A stretch of 64,000 nt of DNA, taken from assembly GCA_037892935.1 (NCBI GenBank), contig JAYXKI010000001.1:3410001-3474000 (forward strand), read 5' to 3'. The position numbers and the translations under genes are program-made. The notes beneath the pieces are model-generated. The model worked only from the letters and a program-made list of their open reading frames with translations. It searched no databases and was not told the origin of the DNA. The stretch comes from Phlebopus portentosus (Eukaryota; Basidiomycota; Agaricomycetes; Boletales; Boletinellaceae). This document shows positions 27,971-64,000 of the stretch, one piece after another (within the stretch, counting starts at the first letter, position 1; every line of letters starts with the position of its first letter).

Positions 27971-28672
<702 letters not shown>

Positions 28673-52046: not shown

Positions 52047-52549
52047 AGACATCGTGACTTCTGCATCCGCCTCGTTCTAGTCTATTTTCGCATTCATTGC
52101 GATATACTCAAAGGACAGAGGCAATCTACGAGTCTTCGTCACTCAACTTATGACTGGATATCGGCGTATTTTATGTGAAATGATGATGTAGCCGTCGGCG
52201 TGCTCCTACACGATCATGTCCTCCCATATGCATGAGATGTTATTCAATCGAGATTGCAACTCCTACAAGATCGAGAGTTTTGTGATTGTTATGAGGTGGA
52301 ACGAAAAGACTAAGTTAACCGAGAATGTTCGTTTCATTCAAGACTCGCCGCTCTTTTCCCGTATCAACACTGGCATAGATGTAGTGGCAAGATAAAGTGA
52401 AGATCTCAGTTAAGAACATGTAGTATATAATTATACACAGACAATCGCATAGCGGCCAAAATGATGTCCTTTTCGTGAACTAATAAGCCTTTGAGATTAC
52501 CGGGTGTTTCTGGATGAGCAGGCTTTTTCAAAGAAAAAAAAAGACTATT
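52047..52549. other. Spacer between RPS29 and tRNA-Lys
   Basis: About 500 bp with the RPS29 3' UTR and the downstream flank of the minus-strand tRNA. A run of T on the tRNA strand (A-rich on plus at 52531-52542) just beyond the tRNA 3' end fits a Pol III terminator. Confidence 0.5.
52531..52542 (-). terminator. Probable Pol III terminator of tRNA-Lys
   Basis: The plus strand reads AAGAAAAAAAAAG, which is a long T run on the tRNA-coding strand, starting about ten bases past the tRNA 3' end. This is the expected RNA polymerase III stop signal. Confidence 0.6.
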
Positions 52550-52643
52550 AGCCCACGGCGAGGGTCGAACTCGCAGCCTTCAGATTTGTAACAGTTATGT
52601 ATCTGTAAGAGTCTGACGCTCTATCCGATTGAGCTACGCAGGC
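52550..52643 (-). tRNA. tRNA-Lys (anticodon CUU) with an intron
   Basis: On the minus strand the acceptor stem is GCCTGCG, pairing with CGTGGGC at the 3' end through two G-U pairs. The D-arm region is TAGCTCAATCGGATAGAGC (box A). The anticodon arm is TCAGA, loop CTCTTA..A, TCTGA, giving anticodon CTT. About 20 bases (CAGATACATAACTGTTACAA) interrupt the loop after position 37, the standard nuclear tRNA intron site. The T-arm is GCGAG TTCGACC CTCGC (box B). The base at discriminator position 73 is T, which is unusual for Lys. The LINE begins immediately upstream of its 5' end. Confidence 0.9.
52635..52643. repeat. Left copy of 9-bp direct repeat flanking the LINE (target-site duplication)
   Basis: TACGCAGGC here is the complement of the first nine bases of the tRNA-Lys gene. 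The same nine bases recur at 58301-58309, just after the LINE 3' UTR. A perfect short direct repeat at both ends of a complete LINE is the expected footprint of target-primed insertion. Confidence 0.75.
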
Positions 52644-52756
52644 TTTTCTTCTCTAACCACCACCATCTTTGTGGGAAAAAGTTACTAAGAACGGCAAATC
52701 GAAGTAGAACGACGAGAGCGAGAAAGACACAACCCCCTCCGGTTACGGAGGAGGTC

Positions 52757-54631
52757 GTGTCCTTCGACAAGGATGACCCCAGAATACAAGAGGCCATCCT
52801 TCGAGTGGTCGCCGAAGCGAAAACGGCGGCAGAAATCAGTTATAAGCCAATTTACATACCGGGCATGGCAAGCCTGTCTTTCCCCCCCGGTCATGCCATC
52901 TACGAGGAGGCGAAGCGTGTATGGAACGAGAAACATCGCGTCGCCATCCCCAGCCGGGATCCGAGGCCCACATCGGCCACCGCAGCAGTAGGCAGCAAGA
53001 GACGAGCCCCTACTCCAGACCAGCCGGTGCGTCCAACGCCGGTGCGCTGGGATGAAGAGGACGAGTCCATGGAGGACTTTGCAGCGGAAGATGCGACGGA
53101 AGTCGATAATTCAGCGCTTATCGCCTTCATGCAGGACGTTAAGAATAAGGTGATGGACTCACTGAACGACCTGGCAAGCCAGGATCCCCCTCGGGAGGCG
53201 TTCGAGTCAGCCCCTACGTGTTCCCCAGGCCTCGTTACGGCTCGCGCCGATGTTTATGCACTTGGATACGTTTTCGGTCAGATAGCAAATTTCTTGGATG
53301 ATTTGGAACATTCGTTACCCGGAGCAAACGGATCATTCAGCGTTATAGCGGAGCACGCATTCGGTGCCGGCTTTCGTAGCGGGCACGCACGTAACTGCGC
53401 AGTCCAGGAATGGGTTGAGGCAAGACGTGATGGTCCGCAGAAGGGACCGGAGGAAGCAGATGACGTCAAGGCACTACGGGATATGATCCGTTCGGAATTT
53501 CATGAGCTCAAGTCACGCATTACTAACCTGGAAGGGCACGTGCCGCGTGAGCAAATGCCAGCAGCCGCTATCAGAGATAGGGGCTTGTACGCATCCATTC
53601 ACGCTCCCAACCCTACCCAAGGTCGGCCTTCGTATGCCGCAACAGCGGCCACAGCACCACCAAGGGTGCAGCAGCCATCCATCCGTATAACGGAAGCCCG
53701 CCAGACGCAGCCGCCTCCCAGCAAGAAGTTCAAACGGGGAATAACCGCAAATACGCAGATTGCGGCTAGATCGAAGAATGGCCATACGTTGTCATTCTCG
53801 GTTGACCCTCTCCCGGTGGAACGGTCGGCAATAGACACATTTGCAACGGTGAAGAAACTGTTCAATAAGCTTGATCTGAAGTCTGACCGTTTGATTCGTG
53901 CAACATGGTCGGATAGACCCCGTCTTCTCATCCACGTTGGAAAGGAGTCCAAGCCAGCAGAACTCGGCCCACGCTTGAGCAGCGCATTACAGGACCTATA
54001 TCGGCAAACGACCCCGACGGCAGAGGTGATATACCATCCCTTCTCCGAAGGTTTTCAGATTTGGGTCCCGAACGTACCGATTCGAAATCCCGAGACGGAC
54101 GCCTTGTTCACCCCGGACGAATTGCAGCAGCAGTTCGCGGATGCGAACACGGTGTTTGACGAGCATCCGATAATCGCTCCCCCACGCTATTTGGCCACTC
54201 AGGAGACATTGCAGCTGCGCCTTCAGGAAGATAGACATGCAACGCTTCCGGTTATCCTGACGGTCGACAAGCCAGTGTCGGCGTACAACACGTTCTTTAA
54301 CCGACACCGAGGAGTATTGTACTTTTTCGGCTATCGGCACATTATCAAGGAACCGCGAGCACGGTTCAAGCGCATACAGTGCGCACGCTGCTGGATGTAC
54401 ACTCACTCGACGTTGGACTGCCCGCATGCGCAAGTATGCAGACGCTGTGGGCAACGACATTCTGAGCTGCGCTGTGACAGCAAATGCGATCAATGCATGA
54501 CGGTCGACGACTGCACGCATACCCTCAAATGCGCCCTTTGTCAAGGGCCGCATTGTGCCGACTCGGAAGTATGCCCTAAACGCCCGCAATCGTCATGGAT
54601 AACCGTAAGCCAGCGCACGTCGTCTCGCTGA
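52757..54631 (+). CDS. LINE ORF1: nucleic-acid-binding protein with zinc knuckles
   Basis: Open frame of 624 codons counted from a GTG at 52757. The first in-frame ATG is at 52865, while the frame stays open upstream to the element boundary without an ATG. The true start is therefore uncertain and could be non-AUG. Residues 60-120 are Pro/Asp/Glu-rich, and a helical segment lies around 225-260 (EADDVKALRDMIRSEFHELK). A region around 340-520 resembles the RRM-like part of other ORF1 proteins. The C-terminus has three Cys/His knuckles: CARCWMYTHSTLDCPH, CRRCGQRHSELRC and CALCQGPHCADSEVC, with CDQCMTVDDCTH between them. It binds element RNA during retrotransposition. It overlaps ORF2 by 37 bases in another frame. 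Confidence 0.88.
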   Translation: MSFDKDDPRIQEAILRVVAEAKTAAEISYKPIYIPGMASLSFPPGHAIYEEAKRVWNEKHRVAIPSRDPRPTSATAAVGSKRRAPTPDQPVRPTPVRWDEEDESMEDFAAEDATEVDNSALIAFMQDVKNKVMDSLNDLASQDPPREAFESAPTCSPGLVTARADVYALGYVFGQIANFLDDLEHSLPGANGSFSVIAEHAFGAGFRSGHARNCAVQEWVEARRDGPQKGPEEADDVKALRDMIRSEFHELKSRITNLEGHVPREQMPAAAIRDRGLYASIHAPNPTQGRPSYAATAATAPPRVQQPSIRITEARQTQPPPSKKFKRGITANTQIAARSKNGHTLSFSVDPLPVERSAIDTFATVKKLFNKLDLKSDRLIRATWSDRPRLLIHVGKESKPAELGPRLSSALQDLYRQTTPTAEVIYHPFSEGFQIWVPNVPIRNPETDALFTPDELQQQFADANTVFDEHPIIAPPRYLATQETLQLRLQEDRHATLPVILTVDKPVSAYNTFFNRHRGVLYFFGYRHIIKEPRARFKRIQCARCWMYTHSTLDCPHAQVCRRCGQRHSELRCDSKCDQCMTVDDCTHTLKCALCQGPHCADSEVCPKRPQSSWITVSQRTSSR

Positions 54632-57600
54632 ATTGCGGGGGGAGTTGGGCCACCTTATCGGCAGCCCTTCGGATGGTTGAATTACGGCACTCTGGTCACC
54701 TCGAATCGGTTATTTTTGCTTTTCAAGAAGTTCCTTTTGGCGTAGTGGGCCGTGCACGCTCCACCACGCGAAAAGAAGGGGTCGAACAATATGGTTCCGT
54801 TCTCATCAAGCGTTTTCAATGGTTTTTTCCGACCGATGATGATCCAAAGGTGGCATGGTGCGTCCCTAAGCATTTTCGCACCACACACCACCTCGAGGAC
54901 AACGTAGGTCGCTGTGGCATACATATCTCGATAGCTGGGAGGTCAACAGTCCACTTATACAACTGGTACTGTCCCCCAGGGCCTGGCACGCATGCGCAGG
55001 CATGGCCGGCGATAAGCCATTTCTGGCAGCAACATCGGCTCCCAGACAACAGCATCATATGTGGGGACTTCAATGCGCACCCTATACAATGGGATACAGA
55101 CTCGGTCTTCAGACGGGGCGGACAGACTACGCAGACTCGTACCGTTTTCTTCCAGCGATGGCTGGAAAGTCACCCGGAGATCCGGGTAGCGGATGACCCG
55201 ACAGCGCATACCTTTCATGCACACAACACGGAGGGAACTCACCCAGACGCCATCATGTACAAGGGGCCTGACCTCCCGCCGCTCGAAATCACCTGGACGG
55301 CGGTCCCGATCAGGGGTATAAGGAGTGGCCACACAATTAATTCAGTATCGACACATTGCAGTTTATCAGTCATACCTCGAGAGACGCTTCTCCTTCCGAA
55401 CTCACTCATCAACAGATGGACAGAGGCGCTCGGAAAAAGGATACCCGACGAGTTCTGGCACGAAACGTGGGAAGGAGCAGGAGACCTGGATAGATGGGCG
55501 CAGAGACTCTTTGACTACAGCAAGCAAGCTACAGAAGATGCCACGAAGCCGGCGAGCCTCAAAACTTTTGTCTGGTGGTGGAACGATCAGACGGACGAGC
55601 TTATGAACTCAGACCAACCAGACAAGCTATACAAGTTGATGCAGCAGCGAAGAGACGCGTACGCAGATGTGCGAGAACAGGCGACGGCCGGGGACATTTG
55701 GAAATTTCATTTGGCAGGCAGGCCGCGCAAGGCGATGTATATTCCGCCTTTGAAAGAGCCATTTCAAGCAACCTATCACGTCGAGATAAGTGAGGCCTTT
55801 AGAAGGCACTACTTCCCAGACGCACGAGACGGGTTAGAGGAGCCGCTACCAGAGCACCGAAAACCCAATAACTTGTTTACGGAAGAGGATCTGTGGGAGG
55901 CATTTCGGGGCATGCCTTCGAATGTATCCCCAGGGATATCGGGCATGTCGACCCAAATGCTGGGCGCCCTCATGGAGCATCATACCCTCACCCTTACAAG
56001 ACTATTAAACAGGTGCATCAGTTTAGGGCACTACCCGGCTGCTTTAAAGCGAACGGTCGTTGCGATGGTCAAAAAGCCGAAACCATATGACCCATCGACA
56101 CCGCGGGCGTACCGGCCTATTTGCGTTGAAGAGTCGTTAGCAAAGCTCCTTGAGCGAGCCGTCACACTGCGGTTACAGACATACATAATGCCAGGAATGT
56201 ATTTCTTGCCAATACAACACGGAGGTCGACCGGGCGCATCAGTGTACGGTGCATGGCATGACCTATATAATCGCCTCCTCACGACGGAGGACTCCTGCGT
56301 TGGGCTTGTTACGTTTGATGTGAAGGGATATTTCGATAATGTGGATCTTGGGCAATTACGGCACGCCCTACGGCTACACGGAGTCCCCCTCTACTTGATA
56401 CAGCTAATAGAGGCTTTCGCTTGCGATCGATCCATACAGTTTGCATTTAATGGGGATCATTCACAATGGTTCGTTAAGCCAAATCGTGGAGTACCACAGG
56501 GGTCCCCTATATCCCCAATTCTCGCGAACATGGCAGCCATGCCGGTCCTACACAGATTGCAAGATTTACCATGGCTACGGTTCTACATGGATGACGGTGG
56601 CCTTGTCACATCAGGCTCAACACCGGGGCGGCTCGTAGGCCGCATAAGTGAAGGTTTGCGGAGAATTGGCGACGAGTTCGCAGACACGACGCTTACGATA
56701 GACCCGGGCTCAGTTCAGTTCATAGCTTTCCGCCGCATTTGGGGCTCACAGGGAAGGTTCACCCCACTAATAAACCAGCCGCTCACGTATCAAAACCGAC
56801 GAATATACTCATCGCCATCGGTCACATGGCTGGGCATTCGTATAGACAAGAATCTGTCTTTTGCCCCTTTTGTTAAGTCCCGGGTCACGGCTGGACACTC
56901 AACATGGTCCAGCCTGGAGTGGTTGACGTCCCGGTCCCGCGGCCTGAAGGCGCGTCACATGCGGACCTACTATTTGCAAATATTGCGGCCAGTATTATAC
57001 TGGGGGGTGCCTATCTGGTATATGCACGCACCACACCTGGCAGAGCTGTTCCAGCCTGTCCATAGACGCGCATTGCTGAGATGCGGAGGTTTTCTCAATT
57101 TTACGCCAACAGCAACTATGGAGGCTCTGCTTTCCATCCCGCCAATCTGGCAGTACGCAGCGGTAGAGGCAACGTGCAGAAATGTTGCAATTGTAGCCCA
57201 TGCAGCATCGAACCCGGCCTTACACCCGAGATACTATGAAGGAATGTGGCCAAATGGCCAGGTAAGCCCGGCCGCCTGTGCCATCCACCCTGAGCTGGAA
57301 GGGCGAGCCAATACCATCATCCGCGACTACCGACAAGCCCTCTCCCTCCGCGGGATGCGGTATGAGATGCGGCATGACGAGAATGGTAGATGGATAATGG
57401 TTTATTTGGTAGAAAACCCATTCCCACCAGTCGTCATTTTCACTCTTCAATTTACTGTTTACTCGGACTTACACTCTCAATATCTCATTGCTTTCCTACG
57501 CATACTTCGTCATATCAAAGATACCGTCCCAGCTCATTATTGTTATCCAGTATATATTGTATCTAGCTATCTTCCTCCTTTGTTCTCTCTTGAACGTACG

Positions 57601-58194
57601 AAAGACCCCTACACCCGCCATTTCACATACTTGATTTCCCGTTTTCTCCCAAGTTTGCGTCCTATGCACGTCGTCTTTATTTACACCCCACTTCGTTTCT
57701 TTGAATCACCTCGGGAGCAGCCAGAGGACTTCCTAGACATCACACTCGCGACGGTGCCGGGCAGCATAGCCTACCTGAAGGATTACTTCCTTAAGGGGTG
57801 GCAGCGAGCAAACCAGCGGTGGGTGCAGTTAGGACATCACACGGTGACGACCCCGTGGCGACGCGGGCTTCTGAGAAAGCCTAGTTATGATTTGTTGCCG
57901 CCTCTCAAGTGGCCATGGAAGCGCAAACAGGAAGTACGATATCTCCAGACCATAGCAAATGTGTCCAGTACGGGTACAACTCGCTCTCGCATCGCACACA
58001 ATTATTCACCACTCTGTCCGGTGGACCGTCAGCGGGATACCGTAGACCATCGCCTCACGACATGCGTGCGCTATGCAGCGCTACGTTATCAATATTTTTA
58101 CCATCGAAATCTGGAATCCCCGGATTGCTCCCTGTCTTTCGATCATGCAATTAATAATGCGCAATTCTTCTTTGATTTGTATAGACCACCCTAG
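54595..58194 (+). CDS. LINE ORF2: APE endonuclease and reverse transcriptase
   Basis: 1199 codons from ATG 54595, inside the end of ORF1, implying translation by reinitiation or stop-start coupling. The endonuclease domain (residues 1-260) has LNCGG, FQEVPF, CGDFNAHPIQWD and STHCSLS, matching AP-endonuclease-type catalytic positions. The RT (about 420-800) has RAYRPICVEESLAKLLE, motif A VTFDVKGYFDNVD, motif B NRGVPQGSPISPILANM and motif C FYMDDGGLV. Motif C is YMDD rather than the common (F/Y)ADD. After the RT is a region of about 100 residues where many fungal LINEs carry RNase H; here it lacks recognisable Asp/Glu catalytic positions. A CPVDRQRDTVDHRLTTC block near residue 1140 is a Cys/His tail motif typical of LINE C-termini. 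Confidence 0.93.
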   Translation: MDNRKPAHVVSLNCGGSWATLSAALRMVELRHSGHLESVIFAFQEVPFGVVGRARSTTRKEGVEQYGSVLIKRFQWFFPTDDDPKVAWCVPKHFRTTHHLEDNVGRCGIHISIAGRSTVHLYNWYCPPGPGTHAQAWPAISHFWQQHRLPDNSIICGDFNAHPIQWDTDSVFRRGGQTTQTRTVFFQRWLESHPEIRVADDPTAHTFHAHNTEGTHPDAIMYKGPDLPPLEITWTAVPIRGIRSGHTINSVSTHCSLSVIPRETLLLPNSLINRWTEALGKRIPDEFWHETWEGAGDLDRWAQRLFDYSKQATEDATKPASLKTFVWWWNDQTDELMNSDQPDKLYKLMQQRRDAYADVREQATAGDIWKFHLAGRPRKAMYIPPLKEPFQATYHVEISEAFRRHYFPDARDGLEEPLPEHRKPNNLFTEEDLWEAFRGMPSNVSPGISGMSTQMLGALMEHHTLTLTRLLNRCISLGHYPAALKRTVVAMVKKPKPYDPSTPRAYRPICVEESLAKLLERAVTLRLQTYIMPGMYFLPIQHGGRPGASVYGAWHDLYNRLLTTEDSCVGLVTFDVKGYFDNVDLGQLRHALRLHGVPLYLIQLIEAFACDRSIQFAFNGDHSQWFVKPNRGVPQGSPISPILANMAAMPVLHRLQDLPWLRFYMDDGGLVTSGSTPGRLVGRISEGLRRIGDEFADTTLTIDPGSVQFIAFRRIWGSQGRFTPLINQPLTYQNRRIYSSPSVTWLGIRIDKNLSFAPFVKSRVTAGHSTWSSLEWLTSRSRGLKARHMRTYYLQILRPVLYWGVPIWYMHAPHLAELFQPVHRRALLRCGGFLNFTPTATMEALLSIPPIWQYAAVEATCRNVAIVAHAASNPALHPRYYEGMWPNGQVSPAACAIHPELEGRANTIIRDYRQALSLRGMRYEMRHDENGRWIMVYLVENPFPPVVIFTLQFTVYSDLHSQYLIAFLRILRHIKDTVPAHYCYPVYIVSSYLPPLFSLERTKDPYTRHFTYLISRFLPSLRPMHVVFIYTPLRFFESPREQPEDFLDITLATVPGSIAYLKDYFLKGWQRANQRWVQLGHHTVTTPWRRGLLRKPSYDLLPPLKWPWKRKQEVRYLQTIANVSSTGTTRSRIAHNYSPLCPVDRQRDTVDHRLTTCVRYAALRYQYFYHRNLESPDCSLSFDHAINNAQFFFDLYRPP

Positions 58195-58300
58195 GGTTTT
58201 CAGGGCGCGATGCCCTTTTTTCTCCCTCTCGCGCCGTCATCTTAGCTAAGTAATAAAGCATGCATGTACTATTTCACCTATATTCTCTAATATACATTGT
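58195..58300 (+). promoter_or_regulatory. LINE 3' UTR with small hairpin and AATAAA
   Basis: Just after the TAG, GGGCGCGATGCCC can fold into a four-base-pair stem with a five-base loop, followed by TTTTTT. AATAAA occurs at 58251-58256. The 3' UTR is the usual recognition site for LINE RT, so the hairpin is a candidate, but this is inference. Confidence 0.45.
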
Positions 58301-58309
58301 TACGCAGGC
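58301..58309. repeat. Right copy of 9-bp direct repeat TACGCAGGC
   Basis: Identical to the start of the tRNA-Lys gene at 52635-52643. It forms both the right flank of the intact LINE and the left flank of the older LINE fragment that follows. Confidence 0.75.
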
Positions 58310-58533
58310 CCTTTCTTTCTAGCTGCCACCATCTGGATCTCAGAATCTTACTAAAGACAGCAAATTGCAGCAGAATGATGAGAGCAAAGAAGACACAACC
58401 CCCTCTGGTGGTAGAGGAGGTTGTGTCCTTTGATAAGAATGACCCCAGGATATAAGAGGCCATCTTTCAAGTTGTCATTAAGATAAGAATAGTAGTAAAC
58501 ATCAGTTACAAGCCAATCTACATACTGAGCATG
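58310..58533 (+). mobile_element. Decayed 5' fragment of a second copy of the same LINE
   Basis: The sequence aligns by eye, with few gaps, to the first about 225 bp of the intact LINE. Shared blocks include GAAGACACAACCCCCTCT/C, GAGGAGGTTGTGTCCTTTGA and AAGAGGCCATC. Similarity stops at about 58533. The ORF1 frame is broken by TAA after AGGATA. It contains no CpG, whereas the matching part of the intact copy has about 16 by my count. It begins after the same TACGCAGGC word, so it probably used the same target site earlier. Confidence 0.82.
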
Positions 58534-59238
58534 CATCACAAAATCCGGAACAAAATTATATTTCCTTATAATAAATTATAATAAACATAACTGATATAGT
58601 ATACATAATTTATTGAGCAAATATTACAATTACATATACCAGTTAGTTCTTTATTGACAAGTACCGTAATACTTATTAAACTGTGTAGTAATTTCTTTAT
58701 TCTTTTAATTCATGCATAATAGCTTCTAAATTATTGTAATTACAGGCTGATAATTTTTAGAAACAAATAATATTGACATAATTATTATGCACATATTGTG
58801 AAGTACATAAAATTATAACTCAATAGTTGTTGAATCTTTGCGATTAAAATATAATATCTTTAAAACTCTATTGAATTTATATAGTATCTATGCTCTTATT
58901 GTGGGAGAAGTAAAACTGTTGCAAGTTTATTGCGAGAGAAGATGATAATTTTAATTTAGTTGTAGAATGACATAATAGTTGGTCAAGTATTTGAGAGAGC
59001 ATAGTAGTTTCTAAACACATACATTGGCTTATATGTATTAGCAAACTTGATAACAATAGTGCAATGAATGAGTAATTATTCTGAGGTGAAATAACTACAG
59101 ACTCAGTATATAACCACTTGCAACACACAATTAATAGAGGATTCAGCAGCACAAAAAGGGATATATGTTAATGACAGCCATTAAATGAGTTGTCAAGAAA
59201 TCAGCCAGTTATAGCAGAATAAAGAAATGAGTAAAGAA
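58534..59238. other. AT-rich, CpG-poor spacer
   Basis: About 700 bp with strong A/T bias and only a handful of CG dinucleotides. Small frames are not convincing. It marks the start of a compositionally distinct segment that continues to the window end. Confidence 0.6.
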
Positions 59239-61868
59239 TTAGTTTCCATCCTCCAAGTCAACATCCGAGTCCCTACTTTTATAGCCAGGCTGCTGGCAAC
59301 GGTGGTGGTAGAAATCCTCGATGTCACTCAATACACCACTGTCATCATAGTCTTTCTGTGCAGGACAATCCAGAAATATCACACTTGAAAACATTAGACC
59401 AAAATAAGATGACAGTGAAAAAGAGAACGAGGGGAGTATCTGTTCCACCAAGCTAACAGTTCTTGATTGCACTCCTTTACTGAAGACTCCTTTGAACAGA
59501 ACATTTTGCATACATGATGGTATATATCGTACACTTCAGGGCAGCCCCGGGGCATGAACTCCCTTGCTGTGCTAAGTCCGTAGAAGGTCTGGCAAATCAA
59601 TGGTCTCAATGATCCGAATGCTAGGATTGATAAAACTGACCTGAGCAGTGGCGTACGCAATTGAAGCTGGAGTGACCTCCATCATGCCTGCAATTTTGGC
59701 AGCTCCGGCCTTTCCACGCATGCTGACATCAACAATGCCATCAATGGGATTGGCAGACCCTGGGCCAAAAAAGACTGCTGCAAAGCTCTTCATATAATTT
59801 GTCAGTATCGAGCCTCAAGGAGAAACATTCTGACGCCTGCCTTGACAATTATAAGACCTTAGAGGTATCCTTTCAGCAGATTATTTCAATAGTATTTGCC
59901 TTCCAGAAAGGCAAAGGAGTGTGGGTGTCCACCATTGAGATGAACTTCGATACCATTCCTGTGTTTGATCAGGGCGGCGCCTCTTCGAAGTTTATCCATA
60001 AAACTTGCAAATGTAGTTCATATCAGCATTAAGTCAATGTTATGAAGAGCAACCTACTCATTTGTAATCTCCTCAGGCTTTACTTCAATGGGCATGAGAA
60101 GCTGCCCAATGACATCATTTTCAAATCCTTGTAAGTCTTTTCTGCCTGTAGGCAGGCGTGTCGACACTATTGTGCCATTAATATCCTTGTAAGATGAGAA
60201 TGTAATGTAATCGAGAATATTTGTCTTGATTCTCAGCGTGTCTATTGACCTCACACTGCATTGGCCACCCTTCATCTAAAAGAAAAGAGTGAGACTATAG
60301 CAGAGGAGATAAATAATAAGGCAAAAACAAACAGCTGCGACTATACGTTCAAAGTCATCTGCTCCAGCACCCATGAGATGATTGTAGATAGGACTGTCAG
60401 TCTCAAACATTGCTCGGAAAACCCTGGCACTTTTGACAGCACTAGAATGATAATACAATCAGCTGGAGGTGAAGTGTACAATAAAGAGACATGTTCCTAG
60501 CATCCGACAGCTGGTCAAGCTCCGCATCATTGAGCTCCTTATATTTGAAGCTATTCAGGAGCATGTTACGTGGAGACTTCCAGCATTCATACGCTCTGGT
60601 GAAATGTTGACCTTTCCCTTTAAATAGAGAGTATATATCACTAAACAATCCATTATGAGCCATAATATCAACTCGGAGCAAAATATTTACTGCTCGACTT
60701 CCACTTCGCTCACCTCTCATTGTCTTTCTCTGAGTCCATCTCAGGATTAGAATCGCTTTCTCGATCTGTCATCTTTGATCTCTTTGACTTCAACTTCGAG
60801 GTCGATCTCGACTGCCAGCTTCCCAGATGGGACATTGACTGCAGATCCGAGGCAAGGTTTATACCTTCGTCTGGCATACTGCCACTTTCTAGCACCGACT
60901 CGCACTTGGACCTCTCCTCATCTTGTGGAGGCGATGACTCCACATCTACATGATATTTTGGGTGCTTGCAGGATGACGATGTGTTAGACGAAGCAGGCCT
61001 GGTCGACGACTTGTGGGAGGATGACTTGGACATCTCCCACCGGCATGGCATGACAAGACTCAAGAGCACAAGGAGAGGAATGAAAAGGGAGGAGGGGGGA
61101 CTCGAAGGTGACTTCAATTTAAATACCACGGCCTGGGATTCGTCTTCCACCAGGCAGTCAGATAAAAAACTTCCATTTGACAGGTTGAGTCTAATCTTGA
61201 CTTGGGCAGCAATTATGGTATGGAACACTGACCAATCAGGCAGACAAGATTATGCCAGCCGGCAATATAAGCATTCTAAATTATATCTCACAGTTGATTA
61301 TTACCACCATTTTCAGAATTGTTTAGAAAAGCAGATCATGTGAAAAATCACCGCATTGCATCAGAAAACCTTGAAAACCCAACAAACCTCGATTTTTCTC
61401 CACAATGAAGCCATACCATGTCTTCCTGTAATGTCGGAAATTATGCCATACTGTATATGCATAGATGCATGTAAAAATACTGGGACTTGGGTGTTACTAT
61501 GTATTGTGAATAGAAAAAGAAGGTGCAGCTCCTGCGACTGCAGCCTTCTGCAGCGTACCAATTTAGTTGTGTTGTTCGAAGAACTGAAGAAGTCTCACCT
61601 GGACAGTAACATCCCTTGCCTTAGAGTCCTTGCGTGACCGACAAGGGCCTTGCTTTGGCTCAGCAGACACAGGAGCAGTCTGCTTCTCGATTTCGCTGAC
61701 ATCTCTGAGTTTTCTGGATGGATTCACCTGCCATGATGACCTTGTCACAACAGGCACATTGTCCAATTGCAACATGAGGGGAGATAGGGAAGGACGGAAG
61801 GTAAATGTTCCATCTTTTATTATATTATGAGTCAGGTCACTGTATGAATAGAGTTGTGGTATTGGCAA
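59239..61868 (-). CDS. DUF6698-like multi-exon protein
   Basis: Minus-strand exons can be strung together that match the layout of the Agaricomycete DUF6698 family (family name from memory). A variable Ser/Lys/Asp-rich N-terminus (exons near 61563-61868 and 60710-61050) comes first. Then come FSDIYSLFKGKGQHFTRAY, SPIYNHLMGAGADDFERI, RSIDTLRIKTNILDYITF and RKDLQGFENDVIGQLLMPIE, followed by LRRGALIKHRNGIEVHLN. The strongest match is SFAAVFFGPGSAN followed by KIAGMMEVTPASIAYATAQ, then PEVYDIYHHVCKMF and NQELLAWWNR, and an acidic C-terminus ending DSDVDLEDGN. The family is greatly expanded in mushrooms and of unknown function. Exon borders are not all resolved, so gene versus pseudogene is undecided. 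Confidence 0.6.
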
Positions 61869-63545
61869 TGGTGACTGGCAATCTCTATGTAAAAATGTTT
61901 ATTCCCACAGGCTCTGGTATCACATGCCGATGAGATATCGCAACTCGCTTATTCTCCACTTTTTGAATCTGACTTACTATGCATACAAAGACCTATACCA
62001 CACATAGTTATGGCTAGAAAATTTCTAATTTGTGCATTTCTGAGCTGGTGGTGTATATTGTATTGAAAATATCAAAAATTTTCTGAAAAATGAGCAAGAT
62101 ACAGCATAGTCACAAGCAATATTGAAAGAACCAAGCAAATCCTTGAAAATTTTTTTTCAACAATTTAAAGATTAGGACCATAAAATACCAATGAAGCATT
62201 TTTAGTGATGATTCTTGGTTGCAATTGAGCGAAGGACAATTATCTTCTTGAGGGATGAAAAGTTAGAAAAGGAAATTATTGGTCATATGACTTGAACTTT
62301 CATAGTGAAAGTACTTGAATTGACATATACCGGACAAGAAACAATTTCTTCTGACATAAATATAGTACATATATACATACAATAAGGTTTCTGGGAAAGA
62401 TGAAACTGCTTCTAGGTACTTTTTGCAATGAAATATTGAGTTTTGGAAAGACAAAAAGCCGACTCTCTCTACAATTTTTTGATGCTGCAAAAGTCTTCCA
62501 GAACCATTTCATGTGCTCATATTGAGGCATAAGAGTCCTAATTTTTCTCCTAAAGGTCTGACCATTTAAATTCAGGAAAATATAGCTTCAGTATGATCAC
62601 TAGTCATAATATCTTTTATATTGGTCATGTATTTTAATGAGATAGACTGGCAAATGCCATATTATACTATTTCCATATCATTATGAACTCAAAGATCCCA
62701 CTTCTTGATGTTTGGGAGCATTGAGCACTGTGCATCCATCATTCAAGAAAGTGGACAACTGAGATCAACATTTTGCACCTTATATAGAAAATATAAAAGC
62801 TCCGACACAAATTTCTCAGTGCACATGTGATATAGAGAATGCCAGTCACTATTGGCAATAAACTCAAAACATGACTCATGGGACCATAAGTGTGCCATCA
62901 ATCTCCTGAGAGCTGAAAGTCATCCTTTGCCCTCGCTCCTCATCCTCCTCACCCATGTCGATCCCTCCGCCCTACTTGATCAAACATATGGAAACCTCAC
63001 ACAATTCAAATGAAAAAGTGCATACTTGTCTCAGTTTATCTTCTGGCAGCTAATGCACTTTGTAGATGGGAAGAGGAACTGCTATCCCTCCGATGATGAG
63101 AAGTGCCATCGTTTACATAAATAGTACATGTCGTTGTGAAGGAAGGAAGAAAGGAAGAGTGCACAACAGACACCAAATGCAGAGAGAAAAAGGACAAGCT
63201 AAAAACTCACAACAGATACACATGGGAAGGGAGAACAAATGAATGTCTGATGCATAATGAAAGGAGGGACAAAGGAATGGCCTATGCACAAGAAAAGAAA
63301 GAGAGAGGTAGGGAGAGAGATAAAATAAATAAATAAGGTGGACCATCTTGGTTGATGAAGGGGAACTAGATGATGATGAGAGGAGAATTAGAAGATGTGA
63401 CAAAACAAGTAAGGAGAGCTGACTGACAGGGTAGCTACTAACACCACTTCTTTGTCCTCTTTCGACTACCTTCACCTTCATCGAAGTCACCTTCTCTCTT
63501 TGGTGGGCATTTGGATTCATAAGGATAAAAGTTGGAGGTAGAGAT
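61869..63545. other. AT-rich intergenic region without recognisable gene
   Basis: About 1.7 kb with low GC, few CpG and many short frames without motifs. A 135-codon minus-strand frame at 63113-63520 is Ser/Leu-rich low complexity and not convincing. I see no terminal repeats or tRNAs. Confidence 0.45.
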
Positions 63546-64000
63546 TCTCAGGAAAACTCGAGACAACAGGAAGCATTGATGTCTGACCTGGGGGATTTTC
63601 TCGACTTCGTCTTCACTAATGGAGGCTCCGATTTGGCTGATGTCAGTACCTTTGCCTTTGCCTTTGCCTTTGATTTCACCAATATGATCTGCGAGACTGA
63701 GGCTTGTTTGAGATTGGCCGACTGGGTTAACACGATCTCTGAGACCATGGGATATTTTGGTGTCAGTTATTTTTTGACGTGAGTGCTTTGTGATGAAAAA
63801 ACCTGCTTCATTGAAGGTAGGTGCAGCTCCACTTGTTGGAAAAGAATATGCGAGGGGATTACCCTCAGCAGTCTCCTACAATGCGATTTGTTGTACTAAA
63901 ATTTTTCACTTTTCCATGTCGAGCTTATAGAAGGCTTTGACGGCATGCCCCTCTTCAAGAATCTCATCATTCCAGTTTGATTCCACCTCTCGTTGCGTAT
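63546..64000 (-). CDS. Partial hypothetical gene at right window edge
   Basis: Reading the minus strand inward from 64000, one frame gives EVESNWNDEILEEGHAVKAF and KLDMEK. After a possible short intron it continues ETAEGNPLAYSFPTSGAAPT, then VGQSQTSLSLADHIGEIKGK and DISQIGASISEDEVEKIPQ. The GKGKGKG run is also open in a second frame (KAKAKAK), so the correct frame is uncertain. It could be the interior of another accessory or element-derived gene. No domain is recognised. Confidence 0.35.

Follow-up and report, generated by a model that had tools for sequence, protein, structure and literature searches.

A lineage of LINEs at the 5' ends of tRNA genes of different isotypes in the basidiomycete Phlebopus portentosus

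Background

As recurrent targets of retrotransposons, tRNA genes are approached by different elements in different ways. In Dictyostelium discoideum, TRE5 elements lie 40-54 bp upstream of tRNA genes in opposite transcriptional orientation, and TRE3 elements lie 40-150 bp downstream, outside the tRNA (PMC5911963); NLTR-A of Dictyostelium purpureum inserts 2-6 bp upstream of tRNA genes (PMC5911963, PMC5006619). LINEs (long interspersed elements, or non-long-terminal-repeat retrotransposons) that are reported to be specific for one tRNA each include the planarian LIN15_SM (tRNA-Arg) and LIN25_SM (tRNA-Glu), and NeSL-1_TV (tRNA-Pro), described in a paper whose abstract refers to restriction-like endonucleases (PMC4640811). 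The zebrafish LINE Dewa targets the spacer of tRNA-Leu genes (PMC3706591), and Ty3 inserts position-exactly at tRNA genes through TFIIIB (PMC5911963). A distinction has been drawn between LINEs that recognize DNA and insert at a specific position and those guided by host proteins, such as TRE5-A, which land nearby (PMC3706591). Here we describe a lineage of LINEs in Phlebopus portentosus, starting from a 64,000-nucleotide stretch (contig C1, JAYXKI010000001.1, positions 3410001-3474000; hereafter the window) of a 38.37 Mb, 23-contig genome, in which an intact LINE begins at the start of a tRNA-Lys gene.

The lineage resembles each of these systems in part. Like TRE5-A and TRE3-A, it consists of LINEs that land at tRNA genes, and it shares with TRE5 the orientation opposite to the tRNA and the use of more than one isotype; the TRE5 and TRE3 elements, however, lie outside the tRNA and carry an oligo(A) tail, whereas the lineage joins at +1, with tRNA nucleotides (nt) 1-7 to 1-11 duplicated, and lacks oligo(A). 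A preliminary description of the window had likened the element to the TRE elements: as an analogy the comparison stands, but the geometry differs, with a site inside the first 7-11 bases of the tRNA rather than some 40-54 bp upstream as for TRE5. NLTR-A is likewise a LINE with an APE-type endonuclease, but it inserts 2-6 bp before the mature start and has an RNase H domain; the lineage joins at -1/+1 (+1/+2 at tRNA-Asn) with a presumed priming nick inside the gene, has no Pfam RNase H match in its second open reading frame (ORF2), and lives in a fungus. LIN15_SM, LIN25_SM and NeSL-1_TV are also tRNA-gene LINEs, each reported for a single isotype, whereas the lineage has six, and an APE-type endonuclease. 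The NeSL clade, near which those three elements stand, has a restriction-like endonuclease. Since the APE-type domain of the lineage lies N-terminal to its reverse transcriptase and its targets span six isotypes, it does not belong with the single-target LINEs of the NeSL or R2 type. Dewa is linked to tRNA genes too, but it targets the spacer instead of the start of the tRNA. The yeast element Ty3 and its relatives share exact insertion at tRNA genes; they are, however, long-terminal-repeat (LTR) retrotransposons with an integrase that insert a few bp ahead of where transcription begins, in contrast to a LINE at +1. A literature search judged by titles, hit counts and the beginnings of abstracts, with most subscription papers and Repbase reports outside its scope, returned no basidiomycete or other fungal LINE aimed at tRNA genes.

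From the window, the copies of the lineage found in the genome, and related LINE families, we conclude that these elements very probably insert at the extreme 5' ends of tRNA genes, irrespective of isotype, and usually regenerate the gene; they may be recruited by the RNA polymerase III (Pol III) machinery.

Results

The tRNA-Lys(CUU) gene occupies 52549..52643 on the minus strand, with its first mature base at 52643 and an intron of about 20 nt in the anticodon loop. It scores 54.5 bits against Rfam RF00005, and ARAGORN names it Lys(ctt) when introns of 15-25 nt are allowed (other settings misname it as Arg or Cys). The intact LINE (52644..58300, plus strand) is divergent to the tRNA gene and starts at 52644, one base outside it. 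The first nine bases of the tRNA, TACGCAGGC (52635..52643), are repeated exactly at the far end of the element (58301..58309), such that the two copies form a target-site duplication; the only third occurrence of the word in the window is at 28059, and a search of both strands of the intact LINE did not find it. Directly behind the outer repeat lies an older copy of the same LINE family (58310..58533, plus strand) that holds only the 5' untranslated region (UTR) and the start of ORF1 and is about 75-77% identical to the 5' end of the intact element (75% at 58312-58533 against its first 225 bases; 77% over 220 aligned bases). No outer duplication belonging to this older copy was found. The start of the LINE at the tRNA 5' end, the perfect nine-base repeat and the older fragment behind it had all been recorded in the preliminary description, and each is borne out.

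That description had also proposed that the second element inserted between the tRNA and the old copy, and base composition agrees with this order. The observed/expected ratio of CpG dinucleotides is 1.03 in the intact copy against 0.00 in the older one; in 500-base bins it runs at 0.73-1.28 up to 58500 and at 0.22-0.74 over the rest of the window, the change setting in near 58310. Because the older copy and its flank are long CpG-decayed and the inner copy is not, the inner copy is evidently the younger and landed between the tRNA and its predecessor. The fall in CpG about the end of the intact LINE (58310-64000) looks as if a methylated, decaying domain stopped at the tRNA and the LINE. Elsewhere the ratio is 0.04 in a copy at C1:3.526 Mb and 0.76-1.94 in the others, some of which are very short, so the order of ages is established for the window alone.

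Copies of the lineage were sought across the genome with ORF2, the 3' UTR, a 17-mer of the 3' tail, a 3' UTR motif, ORF1 and the 5' UTR; the ORF2 search gave 21 matches, spread over 17 loci. In all, nine loci of the lineage were found, on eight contigs, every one at a tRNA gene or remnant and in divergent orientation, and together they span six isotypes (Lys, Thr, Glu, Asn, Ile and, by our own reading, Ala). Besides the window tRNA-Lys these are a Lys remnant at C1:3.526 Mb (recognized by its likeness to tRNA-Lys and called by no program), Thr CGU on C13 (Rfam 47.9 bits), Glu CUC on C8 (an ARAGORN call), Glu CUC on C16 (47.8 bits), Asn GUU on C7 (57.0 bits), Ile AAU on C3 (called by ARAGORN only once its flanks are joined; Rfam 26 bits in place, cut-off 29), an Ala-like remnant on C12 (recognized via the C9 tRNA-Ala and called by no program), and Ala on C9, with anticodon AGC by our reading (Rfam 46.6 bits; ARAGORN prints Phe). 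The C9 locus was met twice, through a tRNA pattern and through an ORF1 match starting 212 bp from the first base of the tRNA. The targeting of tRNA 5' ends with duplication of the tRNA start, first proposed from the window, extends in this way to eight further loci, and no copy of the lineage was found at a non-tRNA site.

The pattern searches were less discriminating. With up to two mismatches the 17-mer gave 51 hits against 63 in a reversed control, which is background level; all six exact hits lie inside known copies, and among the four with one mismatch those on C12 and C16 are copies and those on C10 and C15 (L052, L053) look unrelated, while our reading of the 41 two-mismatch hits covered C7:357083. 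The 3' UTR motif GGGTTTT...GCGATGCCC..TTTT, at 58194..58220 on the plus strand in the window, was run as a genome pattern search and had nine hits, as did its control; the reading covered six, which are known copies at tRNAs, the other hits being C1:1245810, C8:158942 and C11:1230169. No LINE hit from the ORF2, 3' UTR, motif or ORF1 searches adjoins the other 55 tRNA genes found. A search of viral contigs gave no result.

The junctions are specific to each tRNA. At five loci the outer repeat can be compared directly with the tRNA side, and at four it is exact: Lys in the window (9/9), Thr (TGAGGGC, 7/7), Glu on C8 (ACCATATCCGAG, 12/12) and Glu on C16 (ACCATATCCGA, 11/11); at Asn an outer ATGGAGC faces ATGGGGC (6/7). 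At the three loci whose tRNA side is broken, the outer repeat would correspond to the tRNA's own start. The Ile gene has lost nt 1-7 or more, with its join blurred by a shared word AGCTAA, and putting back the outer word TAAACAGGCC gives a complete acceptor stem, GGCCTGT/ACAGGCC; at C1:3.526 Mb the outer word supplies GCCTGCC, which can pair with the remnant's 3' strand GGTGGGC (by eye, with G-U pairs making up two of the seven); and on C12 the outer word ACCAGCAGCCC matches the start of the C9 tRNA-Ala at nine of 11 positions (by eye). The possibility that the tRNA is itself part of the element was rejected: the repeat word varies with the tRNA, and of six words tested against both strands of the element five are absent, the sole exception being TGAGGGC, present once on the opposite strand.

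A related idea, that tRNA and LINE spread jointly as a duplicated unit so that their association is inherited and not targeted, is very improbable. The two Glu loci on C8 and C16 are indeed alike through both tRNA and LINE (74% over 446 columns), and the outer fragment on C8 is similar to the beginning of the C16 copy, so both loci may have one Glu event in common. Against a common descent of all loci stand the six isotypes, the tRNA-specific duplications, the differing outer flanks, and 5' truncation points that vary among copies.

Both cuts can be placed from these junctions. On the tRNA-sense strand the presumed priming nick falls after nt 7-11 whatever the isotype: after nt 11 in the tRNAs with TGGT^GTA (both Glu and the Ala-like C12) and after nt 7-10 elsewhere. 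The second cut falls at -1/+1 in Lys, in Thr, in both Glu genes and, judged from the outer word, in Ile; in Asn it falls at +1/+2. Such geometry could arise if the endonuclease, or a DNA-binding part of ORF2, read conserved tRNA-gene DNA such as the A-box TRGCNNA without a host factor, a reading that we regard as a serious but less probable alternative to a protein landmark. The priming nick does track local sequence, and elements that read sequence, R1 and R2 among them, typically occupy exact positions within a gene. Around the +1 cut, however, no evident motif is common to Lys, Thr, Glu, Asn and Ile, and short A-box-like words must be widespread by chance (uncounted), yet no lineage copy was found at one outside tRNA genes.

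Insertion at the same tRNA has occurred repeatedly. Two head-to-tail copies are present in the window, on C7 and on C3, and probably also on C8, where the outer fragment has a 35 bp likeness (86%) to the start of the C16 copy and may represent the same old event. At C3:333334-333447 (L045) no duplication separates the two truncated LINE tails at their join; this arrangement would suit template jumping, in which the reverse transcriptase passes directly to another RNA, better than two separate insertions.

The preliminary description held that the tRNA stays intact, and this is true of six of the nine loci, where the side that carries the tRNA keeps it complete (Lys in the window, Thr, both Glu, Asn and Ala on C9). 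At the remaining three (C1:3.526 Mb, C3 and C12) the first 7-12 or so bases have been lost and the tRNAs, judged by their sequence, should be dead. Preservation of the tRNA is a usual by-product of the duplication, with no guarantee.

The element itself is a LINE with an APE endonuclease, having two ORFs, an APE-type endonuclease before the reverse transcriptase, variable 5' truncation and a target-site duplication; it has no poly(A) at its 3' end and no LTRs (by eye). A 5' UTR (52644..52756) precedes ORF1 (52757..54631; 624 amino acids (aa)), whose C-terminus is cysteine-rich and knuckle-like (by eye), and ORF2 (54595..58194; 1199 aa) overlaps ORF1 by 37 bases; these and the following features are all on the plus strand. 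Both frames are open throughout, ORF2 without an internal stop. ORF2 carries an APE-type endonuclease/exonuclease/phosphatase domain at 54628..55257 (aa 12-221; PF03372, 25.1 bits, cut-off 24.5; PF14529, 30.9 bits, cut-off 27.4), a reverse transcriptase domain at 56077..56844 (aa 495-750; PF00078, E 2.5e-19), and a C-terminal knuckle at 58015..58065. An AlphaFold model of ORF2 is of low confidence (mean pLDDT 55.8); its best structural matches are human LINE-1 ORF2p and R2 proteins, and it carries no information on guidance to the target. A degenerate RNase H between the reverse transcriptase and the knuckle gains no support from a profile comparison (hhalign probability 0.5%); the order of beta strands and alpha helices at aa 921-1030 (57355-57684) recalls RNase H in a stretch where the model is poor, and the structure comparison did not treat that region separately. 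The closest database protein, 99% identical over 89% of ORF2, is named Sanghuangporus sanghuang (a basidiomycete of the Hymenochaetales). The protein P0001, a 1631-aa 'hypothetical protein' in a Sanghuangporus sanghuang genome, fuses most of the LINE's ORF1 and ORF2. A metagenomic protein, P0002, matches ORF2 at 64% identity, and a relative of ORF1 from Sanghuangporus weigelae is 71% identical over 42% of the query. A conserved RNA fold in the 3' UTR was rejected: RNAalifold proposes helices, but their pair counts are not above those of shuffles, and folding of the single sequence has a z-score of -0.5.

In the LINE-1 endonuclease the final catalytic triplet is SDH; by eye, the corresponding triplet is SGH in ORF2 (aa 242-247; 55318-55335), MGH in P0002, AGH in P0003 and ARH in L002. 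The altered triplet, together with an inner duplication missing at three of the nine loci, would suit insertion independent of the endonuclease at breaks that arise at tRNA genes (through stalled forks or R-loops), with the break supplying the precision. We nevertheless consider this unlikely, as five loci carry duplications of 7-12 bp, four of them exact, which indicates two defined nicks, and as the endonuclease domain scores above the Pfam cut-offs in an intact frame.

Related LINE families occur in the same genome at 12 loci outside the lineage, matching the window ORF2 at 28-48% identity (by matched stretch). No tRNA was found at any of the 12 (about 10 kb each; ARAGORN, and Rfam at cut-off), and a reading by eye that covered their 3' ends, with the 5' ends outside it, saw no tRNA remnant; three further places (C11:800562, C11:816138 and C10:1045 kb) were outside the reading. 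In a tree of the ORF2 C-terminus, the tRNA-sited copies and P0002 stand apart from the non-tRNA families and P0003 with a support of 0.96, although the tree is rough, being built from 21 of 23 stitched rows (P0001 and P0004 left out) that are short and query-anchored. In the same kind of query-anchored alignment the C-terminal knuckle is CPxD or CPxH in five rows of the tRNA group (the window, with CPVD, Asn, Thr, Glu on C8, and P0002) against CxxC in the relatives and P0003; the Lys remnant has YLVD, and the C16 row is too damaged.

These relatives bear on the idea that insertion is random and survives selection only beside tRNAs, which we rate as the least probable of all. Insertions next to tRNAs are thought to be mild, as that idea would have it, but selection could hardly fix copies at the same base of a gene, and the related families persist at their 12 loci without a tRNA found. 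The probability p that an insertion made at random falls no more than 15 bp from a tRNA start, and in the right orientation, is about 2e-5 to 2e-4 for 58-500 tRNA genes, the 58 counted being a lower bound (63 of 1077 candidates scored). Nine of nine copies at tRNAs leave chance no room, even if the two remnants and C9 are removed or the Glu loci are counted once.

One related family forms an array of three head-to-tail copies at a single site, C1:1140521-1153150 (L022, L023), in which the 16-base CTCTTTACCACTCGCT precedes the first copy and follows the first and second; its two complete ORF2s share 96% identity, and the last of the three copies ends near L023:8650. This array suggests that stacking is independent of tRNA targeting. 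Two smaller observations may be added. At L030:3888-3896, downstream of the C8 copy, TACGCAGGC is followed by TTTC, either by chance or as the remains of a tRNA-Lys start; and at L027:7193-7321 an AT-rich, near-perfect inverted repeat, possibly a small inverted-repeat transposon, resembles several microRNA families below cut-off on both strands.

Discussion

We propose the following course of insertion. The ORF2 particle would be brought to the gene by the Pol III machinery assembled on its internal promoter, either through TFIIIC bound at the A box or through TFIIIB, and the endonuclease would nick the tRNA-sense strand after nt 7-11, at the border of acceptor and A box. The exposed 3' end could then prime reverse transcription of the element's 3' end (...TTGTTA), aided by one or two matching bases. 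A cut of the second strand at +1 would duplicate the tRNA start and usually regenerate both gene and docking site; a 5' join without duplication would instead lose the acceptor strand, and the tRNA gene would die.

How the particle finds the gene is the point on which the evidence divides. Isotype-blindness and the fixed +1 cut favour a protein landmark, and the dependence of the priming nick on nearby bases points to some reading of DNA by the endonuclease. We place a protein tether first, at about even chances, with pure DNA reading second. We lean slightly towards a fuller statement, in which the lineage recognizes tRNA genes as structural landmarks by contacting the Pol III promoter complex, makes both of its nicks in the stretch from +1 to the A box, and is thereby isotype-blind and base-exact together. 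On this account tRNA starts would stack insertions by age with the innermost youngest, because an insertion can rebuild the docking site between the tRNA and earlier copies.

Several points weigh against this interpretation. Recruitment by Pol III factors is conjectural. ORF1, a candidate guiding protein, has no Pfam match, and the 3' UTR shows no covariation beyond shuffles that might indicate guidance. The tRNA identity of the C1:3.526 Mb and C12 remnants is a matter of sequence likeness, with no ARAGORN or Rfam call in place and no ARAGORN call after joining, and Glu on C8 has an ARAGORN call with no Rfam hit at the gathering cut-off. C9 is the weakest of the nine loci: its ORF1 match is weak (E 0.0015), its tRNA-LINE junction is unread, and the 5' UTR search returned the two window copies only. 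Remnants at three lineage loci were missed by the programs, so that a remnant beside one of the relatives could have been missed too. Finally, all copies come from one genome of one species.

Two routes to a target are usually kept apart: elements that read the DNA of a single site, and elements that are tethered by proteins and land loosely near Pol III genes. Judged by its junctions, the lineage appears base-exact and isotype-blind at once, and so joins the exactness of the first route with the breadth of the second, in LINEs of a basidiomycete. Because relatives in the same genome seem to be without the habit, the protein change behind tRNA targeting can be sought by comparing a few ORFs. 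A LINE that is blind to isotype and usually spares its target might also serve as a basis for gene delivery to safe sites.

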